Assembly (NCBI GenBank): GCA_021785335.1
Contig: JAJYFW010000122.1
Coordinates: 1-6,201 of the forward strand
Direction of reading: 5' to 3'
DNA: 6,201 nucleotides
Source of the DNA: Pseudomonadota bacterium
Lineage (GTDB): Bacteria; Pseudomonadota; Alphaproteobacteria; Acetobacterales; Acetobacteraceae
Both the position numbers and the translations under genes were made by a program. Positions 4,738 to 6,201 of this stretch are shown here, one piece after another (the first letter of the stretch is position 1; each line of letters starts with the position of its first letter). The notes under the pieces were generated by a model. It saw only the letters and a program-made list of their open reading frames with translations, was not told where the DNA came from and did not search any database.

Positions 4738-5745
4738 TCATTGGGCGCGTACCAGCTCCACGAGGCGCGCGACGTTCTCCGGCGGCGTTTCCTTCAGGAT
4801 GCCGTGGCCGAGGTTGAAGATGTGCGGCCGGTGTCCGACCGCGCGGCGGACCGCGGCGACTTCCCGCGCCAGTGCCTCGCTGCCCGCCAGCAGCGCCAGC
4901 GGATCGAGGTTGCCCTGGACGACGAGGTCCGGCGGCAGGGTCGCGGGATCGGTCTGGGTGTCCATGCCCACCGCCTGTACGCCGGTCTGCCTGGCATAGG
5001 TGGCGAGGCTGGCGCCGGCGAGGCGGGGGAAGCCGATTACCGGAACCGTGGGAAACCGCGCCCGTATTGCCTGCGTGATGCGTTTGGCGGGTGCGATGAC
5101 GTGGGCGGCGAACAGGCTCGGCGGCAGCAGCCCGGCCCAGGTATCGAACAGCATCACCGCCTCCGCTCCCGCCTCGATCTGGCCGGCGAGGGTCGCGATC
5201 GTGCCCTCGGTGAGCAGGTCGATCAGCGCCACAAGGAAGCCGGGATCGCGGAAGGCAAGCGTCCGGGTTTCGAGGAAATCGCCGCCGCGCCCGTCGACCA
5301 TGTAGCAAGCCACGGTGAAGGGGGCGCCGGCAAAGCCGATCAGCGCCGCATCCCCGAGTTCCCGCGCGATCAGCCGCACCGCCTCGCGTACCGGCGCGGT
5401 GCGTTCGGCTACCTGGTCGAGACGGAGGGTCGCGAGCCCCGCCGCATCGCGGATCGGCGGCAGGCGCGGACCTTCGCCCTCGCCATAGGTCAGGCCCTGG
5501 CCCAGTGCCCAGGGTAGCACCAGGATGTCGCTAAACAGGATCGCGGCGTCGAAGTCGTAGCGGCGCAGCGGCTGCAGCGTCACTTCTGCCGCCAGGGCCG
5601 GGTTCATGCAGAGATCCAGGAAGCCGCCGGCCTCGGCCCGTGTCGCGCGGTATTCCGGCAGGTAGCGGCCGGCCTGGCGCATCAGCCAGAGCGGGGGAGG
5701 GTCGAGCCGCTCGCCGTTCAGGACGCGAAGGAGCCGCTTCGTCAT
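4738..5745 (-). CDS. hemE: Uroporphyrinogen decarboxylase (335 aa)
   Basis: Removes four acetate carboxyls from uroporphyrinogen III to give coproporphyrinogen III; a cytoplasmic enzyme that needs no cofactor. Signature 1 is seen as PPLWLMRQAGRYLPEYR (17-33) with substrate-binding Arg23 and Arg27; the essential Asp is Asp73 in LFSDILVLP (70-78); signature 2 is GFAGAPFTVACYMVDG (137-152) with Tyr148; FDTWAG follows mid-protein and FNLGHG (310-315) supplies the conserved His314. Length is slightly short of the usual 340-355 but all core motifs are present. Start ATG at 5745 has a modest GGAATTGATGAC upstream; another ATG at 5750 is out of frame and stops at once. It is the first gene of the cluster. 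A TTGACA at 5919-5914 could be part of its promoter, but no matching -10 is convincing. Confidence 0.98.
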   Translation of the reverse strand: MTKRLLRVLNGERLDPPPLWLMRQAGRYLPEYRATRAEAGGFLDLCMNPALAAEVTLQPLRRYDFDAAILFSDILVLPWALGQGLTYGEGEGPRLPPIRDAAGLATLRLDQVAERTAPVREAVRLIARELGDAALIGFAGAPFTVACYMVDGRGGDFLETRTLAFRDPGFLVALIDLLTEGTIATLAGQIEAGAEAVMLFDTWAGLLPPSLFAAHVIAPAKRITQAIRARFPTVPVIGFPRLAGASLATYARQTGVQAVGMDTQTDPATLPPDLVVQGNLDPLALLAGSEALAREVAAVRRAVGHRPHIFNLGHGILKETPPENVARLVELVRAQ

Positions 5746-5839
5746 GTCATCAATTCCAAAGAAGAGAATTTAAGAGGATGGGGCGGTAGCAGGGCTGTGG
5801 GTTGCGGGGAACCCCATGAGCCCGCGGTTGGCCAAGCCG

Positions 5840-5848
5840 GTGTCCACA
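5840..5848 (+). promoter_or_regulatory. DnaA-box-like 9-mer (two mismatches)
   Basis: GTGTCCACA differs from TTATCCACA at positions 1 and 3 and keeps the TCCACA core. It lies three bases before the AT-rich core of the candidate origin. Support is from position more than from sequence. Confidence 0.35.
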
Positions 5849-5851
5849 GGC

Positions 5852-5893
5852 ACCATTATCGATAAAATATTGATTTTCCATATTTATTTTTCG
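5852..5893. other. AT-rich core, candidate DNA unwinding element
   Basis: 33 of 42 bases are A or T, unlike anything else in this GC-rich window. On the plus strand the right half is T-rich (TGATTTTCCATATTTATTTT at 5871-5890). It includes the perfect palindrome TTATCGATAA (5856-5865) and the IHF match. In an origin such a stretch would be the first melted; in a promoter region it could be an UP-like or protein-bending element. Confidence 0.5.
5863..5875 (-). promoter_or_regulatory. IHF binding site match
   Basis: The minus strand reads AATCAATATTTTA, fitting the IHF consensus WATCARNNNNTTR at every position. It lies in the AT-rich core. IHF sites are known parts of the Caulobacter and Rickettsia origins at the same locus. 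Chance matches are more likely in AT-rich sequence, which lowers the weight somewhat. Confidence 0.5.
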
Positions 5894-5982
5894 TTCTGCA
5901 CGTTCAGGGAATATGTCAACGCAGGTCATCCGGTGCTCGCGTCTGTCCCCGGGATTGGCGCCGGGTGGGATGTAACGCGAGG

Positions 5983-6000
5983 TTATCCCCGTTATCCTCA
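5983..6000 (+). promoter_or_regulatory. Two abutting DnaA-box-like 9-mers
   Basis: TTATCCCCG (5983-5991, two mismatches to TTATCCACA) is directly followed by TTATCCTCA (5992-6000, one mismatch), forming a tandem GTTATCC repeat with 9-base periodicity. They end four bases before the DUF299 start codon and fill the place where a Shine-Dalgarno would be. DnaA binding is inferred. Confidence 0.42.
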
Positions 6001-6004
6001 CCTC

Positions 6005-6201
6005 ATGGACAACAAGCTCAATCTCCATCTGGTGTCGGACGCCACCGGTGAAACGCTCAACGCGGTGGCGCGCGCGACGGTCGTGCAGTTCGAGCACGCG
6101 ACCATCGTGCATCATCGCTGGAGCCTGGTGCGCACGCGGCTGCAACTGCATCGGGTCATCGAGGGTATCGAGATGGAGCCGGGACCGGTTCTGTCCACCC
6201 T
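6005..6201 (+). CDS. ppsR: Pyruvate phosphate dikinase / PEP synthase regulatory protein (DUF299), N-terminal 65 residues
   Basis: Bifunctional ADP-dependent kinase / Pi-dependent pyrophosphorylase family (E. coli PpsR, formerly YdiA; Rickettsia RP001-type) that inactivates and reactivates PEP synthase or pyruvate phosphate dikinase by threonine phosphorylation. The visible N-terminus has the family's [18 protein letters not shown] (7-24), followed by VQFE (27-30) and a helical stretch ([15 protein letters not shown], 41-55). The P-loop and catalytic part lie beyond the window edge. Start ATG at 6005; no Shine-Dalgarno is close (GCGAGG is over 20 bases away), and no in-frame upstream ATG was found back to 5960. 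This PpsR is unrelated to the photosynthesis repressor of the same name. Family assignment is firm; which target enzyme it controls is not visible. Confidence 0.92.

Follow-up and report, generated by a model that had tools for sequence, protein, structure and literature searches.

The window analyzed here, a 6,201-nt stretch of contig JAJYFW010000122.1 from an uncultured genus of the Acetobacteraceae, carries on its minus strand rho, ppa, a UPF0093 gene that we take to be hemJ, a HAD phosphatase gene, hemH and hemE, followed by a 259-bp gap and, on the plus strand, the start of a PPSR gene (Table 1). The 65 residues of the PPSR product that lie inside the window match Pfam Kinase-PPPase PF03618, presumably the DUF299/PPSR family, with an E-value of 4.1e-11, and the full-length copy of the relative G305 does so with 8.4e-83. 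Together with the URO-D match on the other side, this confirms the pair of flanking genes recognized in the first-pass annotation of this DNA, which had likened it to the neighborhood of the Caulobacter and Rickettsia origins. DUF299 corresponds to COG1806 (PMC1914354). The gap has a GC content of 53% against 70% for the window, its AT content thus exceeding the average of the window, the reference used here in place of the whole genome.

Table 1. Features of the hemE/PPSR locus, in window coordinates
Feature	Position	Strand	Basis or remark
hemE, uroporphyrinogen decarboxylase, left flank	4738..5745	-	Pfam URO-D, E 2e-109
Intergenic gap, proposed oriC	5746..6004	.	Skew, parS, box and motif evidence from relatives
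AT-rich tract beside hemE (32% GC), putative unwinding element	5751..5778	.	Matching place AT-rich in relatives
C-anchored triplets CTA CCG CCC CAT CCT CTT, DnaA-trio-like	5772..5789	-	Periodicity in aligned relatives
Eroded DnaA box 1, CAACCCACA	5796..5804	-	Relatives have TTATCCACA at the matching place
Palindrome GGGGAACCCC beside box 1	5806..5815	.	Invariant in four genus gaps
DnaA box 2, GTGTCCACA	5840..5848	+	2 mismatches; TCCACA the sole part kept in the genus
Full IHF consensus match	5863..5875	-	Sole window match at up to 1 mismatch; not kept in G402 or G403
Two head-to-tail DnaA-box-like 9-mers, TTATCCCCG TTATCCTCA	5983..6000	+	Box-like matches, conservation
PPSR / DUF299 / COG1806 gene start, cut at window end	6005..6201	+	Pfam Kinase-PPPase PF03618

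The genus of G305 comprises four genomes (G305, G402, G403 and G401), with hemE in three of them, and the HemE protein of the window is 94% identical to those of G305 and G402 and 87% identical to that of G403. G098, G193 and G335 (Rhodovastum atsumiense, of the Acetobacteraceae) belong to the same family as G305, and G094, G250, G141, G148 and G019 are relatives at the level of the order. The gap is less conserved than hemE in G402 and G403, where 198 and 159 of its 259 bases, respectively, are identical. Against contig C117 of G305, 256 of the 259 gap bases and 196 of the 197 bases of the PPSR start are identical, as are 928 of the 1008 bases of hemE; this step in identity at the hemE start could reflect either recombination or constraint.

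DnaA boxes are over-represented in the window, with 13 matches at up to two mismatches where shuffled sequence averages 4.0 (none of 200 shuffles reaches 13), and six of the 13, at five places, fall inside the gap. The three DnaA-box-like 9-mers singled out earlier are present, with two, two and one mismatches (TTATCCCCG at 5983-5991 has two and TTATCCTCA at 5992-6000 has one), and the accompanying remark that every box is imperfect extends to the genus: none of its four gaps, the window included, contains a perfect box. The enrichment is seen throughout the 85 gaps that we counted (87 before two from duplicate genomes were removed). The 21 order-level gaps hold 34 boxes at up to one mismatch versus 0.9 in shuffled sequence, 60 further alphaproteobacterial gaps (some of them from the same family) hold 117 versus 3.9, and the four genus gaps, among which the window and L081 are near copies, hold 18 at up to two mismatches versus 2.6. 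In G098, a genome of 3.8 Mb, two of the five perfect DnaA boxes lie inside the hemE/PPSR gap. A genome-wide search of G305, G402, G403 and G401, limited to perfect boxes, recovered 10 sites, every one on a separate contig, and no cluster outside the gap. The tandem motif TTATCCMCGYTATYCT (window 5983-5998), which retains TTAT, occurs as a single genomic copy, located inside this gap, in five of seven genomes (G305, G402, G403, G335 and G193); it is absent from G401 and G098.

The hemE-proximal side of the gap (window 5751-5804) shows a conserved order of elements that runs from a DnaA box through a GGCC spacer and an array with a 3-nt period to an AT tract at the hemE end. Outside the genus, a 21-nt block around box 1 is matched at 15 or more positions in 32 of 33 order-level gaps, some of which are shown to be of the same family; it is made up of an AT-rich purine tract, GGGCC, TGTGGATAA (box 1 on the hemE strand) and CGGGGTACC, often with a second box about 25 nt further on, and the stretch from -50 to -20 relative to box 1 has an AT fraction of 0.56-0.71 in the relatives. 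Within the genus, box 1 reads CAACCCACA (CAACTCACA in L112), with CACA retained and TTAT turned into CAAC, amounting to three mismatches in the window and three to four across the genus. The qualifier ‘diverged’ that the first-pass annotation had attached to its putative origin is correct and proves specific to the genus, in which box 1 is eroded; perfect boxes occur in the same gap of relatives. The adjoining palindrome appears as GGGGTACC(CC) or GGGGTACCCC in many relatives, following the pattern GGGGWACCCC. Despite the overall drift of the gap, the genus has kept TCCACA, the tandem motif and, next to box 1, the block GTTGCGGGGAACCCC.

From box 1 toward hemE, the aligned relatives present a C at every third base over six triplets. 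The C-phase contrast is 0.267 across 35 gaps including the genus (the weakly anchored L104 and L081, as a near copy of the window, were left out), a value as high as which occurs in none of 1000 dinucleotide shuffles. It is 0.323 without the genus, which is out of phase (the triplets of the window are shifted by 2 nt relative to those of the relatives), and 0.262, a value reached by 2 of 1000 shuffles, in a non-redundant set of 14 gaps that likewise leaves out the genus. The contrast stays at or below 0.143 at other offsets; four of these also give low shuffle counts (2, 3, 4 and 7 of 300), indicating that shared ancestry inflates the periodicity test somewhat. The test is also post hoc: base periodicity was examined after the rule of DnaA-trios with a middle A had failed, such trios occurring in 4 of 33 relatives' gaps versus 8.5 expected and hence not being enriched. 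In the window itself, a run of three middle-A trios is present, as it is in a fraction of 0.46 of the shuffles, and box 1, with its three mismatches, falls outside the published definition of a box at up to two mismatches within 16 bp of at least three such trios. Judging from the alignments, the period is unlikely to be of coding origin, because box 1 lies at distances from the hemE start that differ in frame from one relative to another and stop triplets occur inside the array. A usable box is present in 27 of 45 gaps from outside the order set; the pooled columns of these 27 are without a common phase, and six of them, with the box 67-126 nt from hemE, look triplet-like by eye only.

The AT-rich core and the full IHF match, which had been put forward as parts of the origin, do exist as described, the lowest-GC 50-mer of the window starting at 5855 with 24% GC. 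At least one IHF match at up to one mismatch arises in 62 of 200 window shuffles, and a full match in 0.95% of 2000 gap shuffles. The site is shared with the near-identical G305, absent from the diverged genus gaps L111 and L112, and found in one of the 33 other order-level gaps, against 0.18 expected; the 5851-5900 core, in turn, is GC-rich in L112. Lacking conservation in the genus, the IHF site and this core are not supported as functional parts. Alignment of the gap across relatives, which the first-pass annotation had proposed as a check, thus bears out TCCACA and the tandem motif and goes against the other two. Given the conserved order of box, spacer, array and tract beside hemE, and the GC-rich counterpart of the core in L112, we propose that the conserved unwinding-type module is the hemE-proximal one. 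A single CtrA-type site (TTAA-N7-TTAA) with two mismatches was found in the window against 0.99 expected, which is not above chance; as PMC1914354 reports predicted origins without CtrA sites, we did not count such a site as required. A promoter scan was uninformative (0 found, 0.3 expected), and Rfam gave no match at the gathering threshold.

Evidence on where replication starts comes mainly from relatives. In G335, sampled as 40 stretches of 20 kb, 14 of the 19 stretches before 2.30 Mb have negative GC skew, 17 of the 18 at 2.31-5.78 Mb have positive skew, and all three beyond are negative. The best switch separates the 2.31-Mb sample from the 2.33-Mb one; the gap is located at about 2.3009 Mb, and dnaA is at 1.979 Mb. 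Placing the origin at the gap yields an R2 of 0.59, versus 0.33 at dnaA, and none of 300 permutations matches the best fit; sampling was denser around hemE and dnaA, with two overlapping pairs of stretches, and L121 contains 5000 N. The order-level relative G094 gives 0.67 at hemE and 0.03 at dnaA, its best fit at 3.10-3.29 Mb being 0.27-0.46 Mb off hemE (3.56 Mb); the 14 kb examined around this hemE gave no PPSR match. The two locations are not separable in G250 (R2 of 0.46 at the gap versus 0.44 at dnaA; best fit at 4.51-4.76 Mb). Only 8 bp separate the last aligned hemE base from the end of this genome's record, whose start precedes PPSR by about 310 bp, which puts base 1 inside the hemE/PPSR gap. 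In the 2.7-Mb genomes G019, G038 and G039, the distance from the end of hemE to the beginning of contig C1 is 1.6 kb, and in G019 (L176) PPSR is next, at about 3 kb; either record rotation or an assembly break near the origin may be responsible.

Skew is less telling elsewhere. G141 has no usable skew over 4.2 Mb, with 297 of 300 permutations fitting equally well, and G098 lacks a clear switch at the gap (-0.025 / -0.006), its skew rising weakly at dnaA (-0.001 / +0.020). The short hemE contigs of the genus show no switch (+0.016 / +0.053 in G305 and +0.009 / +0.018 in G403), nor does the 189-kb contig C52 of G403 at dnaA, and GC3 skew split by gene orientation was uninformative. DnaA boxes at up to one mismatch are likewise missing near dnaA, none being found in 11.5 kb (G305), 7.7 kb (G402) and 14.0 kb (G403).

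Sites resembling parS point to the same neighborhood as the skew of G335. Twelve genomes were searched, and in all eight with readable linkage such sites lie 6.5-58 kb from hemE: within the family at 45 kb (G335), 27 kb (G193) and 17 kb (G098), and at the level of the order at 26 kb (G141), 39 kb (G250), 44-58 kb (G094), 6.5-14.5 kb (G148) and 9-12.5 kb (G019). Two perfect sites stand at G250:C1:39002-39054, that is, 39 kb from the hemE/PPSR gap, and G141 has two perfect sites at its 26 kb despite its lack of usable skew. Every site in G148 and G098 carries one mismatch, and G335, G193 and G019 have extra sites far off or on other contigs. The four genus genomes give no linkage, the sites and hemE being on different contigs or hemE missing. 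The reversed pattern, used as a control, matched once each in G335 and G250 and in none of the other ten genomes.

We conclude that the gap is very probably the oriC of this uncultured genus of Acetobacteraceae, an origin of the hemE-COG1806 type found in Alphaproteobacteria, the evidence for its location coming mainly from relatives. The origin suggested in the first-pass annotation is accordingly supported, mainly through the skew of G335 and G094, parS proximity, box enrichment, the tandem motif and the negative results at dnaA. Location in the relatives, conserved architecture and the erosion of box 1 in the genus are supported by the data; binding by DnaA, the direction of unwinding and use in the species of the window are what we infer from them. 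DnaA would bind the weak boxes of the gap, namely box 1, box 2 and the tandem pair, and would oligomerize on single-stranded DNA, following the triplet array from box 1 toward hemE, such that the AT tract at 5751-5778 would open and the helicase be loaded there.

Were the origin to have moved elsewhere in the genus, the gap would be an eroded relic kept as the divergent hemE/PPSR promoter region, which would fit the three to four mismatches of box 1, the lack of perfect boxes in the genus gaps and the local skew without a switch in the short genus contigs. Yet the erosion is patterned, with GTTGCGGGGAACCCC, TCCACA and the tandem motif staying in place as the gap falls to the identities given above for G403 and G402; moreover, the perfect boxes of the four genus genomes form no cluster elsewhere, G403 shows no switch at dnaA, and no box lies near dnaA in three contigs. 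We accordingly regard relocation as improbable. Origins close to dnaA are common in bacteria, and replication starting there would leave the gap an ordinary intergenic region. The weak skew rise at dnaA in G098 and the Acetobacter oriC that was assigned near dnaA (PMC3751514) speak for such a start, but it is disfavored by the G335 and G094 fits, by the level skew of -0.0477 and -0.0482 on either side of dnaA in G403:C52 and by the box-free surroundings of dnaA in three genus contigs, which together render it very improbable. The conserved motifs could also be sites of a transcription regulator of hemE and PPSR, unrelated to replication: the genes are divergent, and the gap carries the conserved palindrome GGGGWACCCC. 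Against this stand the perfect DnaA boxes in the relatives' copies of the gap, the skew and the proximity of parS, and we assign it a next to negligible probability.

If the gap serves as oriC, its divergence may be mirrored in the initiator. We took the best 120 of 8000 DnaA matches, 117 of which could be parsed and three not, and delimited a clade of 10 proteins (P0121-P0129 and P0195) separated by an identity of at least 82%. All 10 clade members among these best 120 have a Q before RRAR and the sequence GDRDHTT in domain IV. At the former position, the 107 non-clade proteins of the same best 120 have A (91) or P (16) and in no case Q; at the latter, they have GN (104), GD (2) or GT (1). 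Aligned to the domain IV structure 1j1v, whose chain we take to be numbered from residue 374, the changed residues are the equivalents of E. coli DnaA 397 and 431. R399 of E. coli DnaA reads TTA in the minor groove (PMC5742627), and the base-contacting positions named in PMC5043019 are the same as in the relatives. We tentatively suggest that initiator and origin changed together in the genus, a possibility that we consider rather doubtful: a Q at the K397 equivalent, two residues before R399, and a D at the 431 equivalent, beside R432-H434, would go with the conversion of the TTAT half of box 1, the side read by R399, to CAAC with CACA kept, and initiation would then rely on an altered box together with a non-canonical, C-anchored DnaA-trio array. 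Within the clade, DnaA and the hemE gap could be compared in G305, G402 and G403 only, and the apparent co-divergence is a correlation within one clade as opposed to a demonstration.

On these observations, oriC lies at hemE/PPSR in the chromosome of at least one member of the Acetobacteraceae, G335, and probably in the genus of the window, in contrast to one Acetobacter genome paper, in which oriC is placed near dnaA (PMC3751514). They also provide a natural experiment on how much drift DnaA-box and DnaA-trio sequences tolerate with the origin staying put, G098 having two perfect boxes in the gap whereas the genus of the window has none, along with clade-wide changes in the DNA-binding domain of DnaA.

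Our literature search found no publication dealing with the replication origin of either this genus or Rhodovastum. The hemE-COG1806 origin is, according to PMC1914354 (citing Brassinga et al. 2001), experimentally established in Caulobacter and placed likewise in Rickettsia. The gap has in common with Caulobacter crescentus Cori and the predicted Rickettsia origins the flanking genes, AT-richness and DnaA-type sites, as that paper describes them, whereas the gap of the window is shorter (259 bp), has no perfect box and no CtrA sites above chance, and carries an IHF match that is unconserved. Proximity to hemE is likewise shared with Sphingopyxis granuli TFA of the Sphingomonadaceae, for which an oriC with conserved boxes and a putative DUE was predicted near this gene (PMC4741004); the window belongs to a different order, and the DnaA boxes of its genus are eroded. 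The basal unwinding system of Bacillus subtilis comprises a GC-rich spacer averaging 4 bp and 3'-GAT-5' trios, with deviant trios foreseen (PMC8287927). The gaps of the relatives follow its order, from box through GGCC spacer and period-3 array to T-rich tract, but it is C (3'-G on the complementary strand), not the middle A, that recurs with the period here, and box 1 of the genus is eroded. In Epsilonproteobacteria, DnaA domain IV and the box differ jointly by lineage (PMC5043019); the positions that differ there, as named in that study, are base-contacting ones, whereas the clade studied here retains the equivalents of R399, P423 and R432-T435 and has changes in neighboring residues. Set beside these systems, the probable origin in the gap is a diverged variant of the known hemE-COG1806 type.
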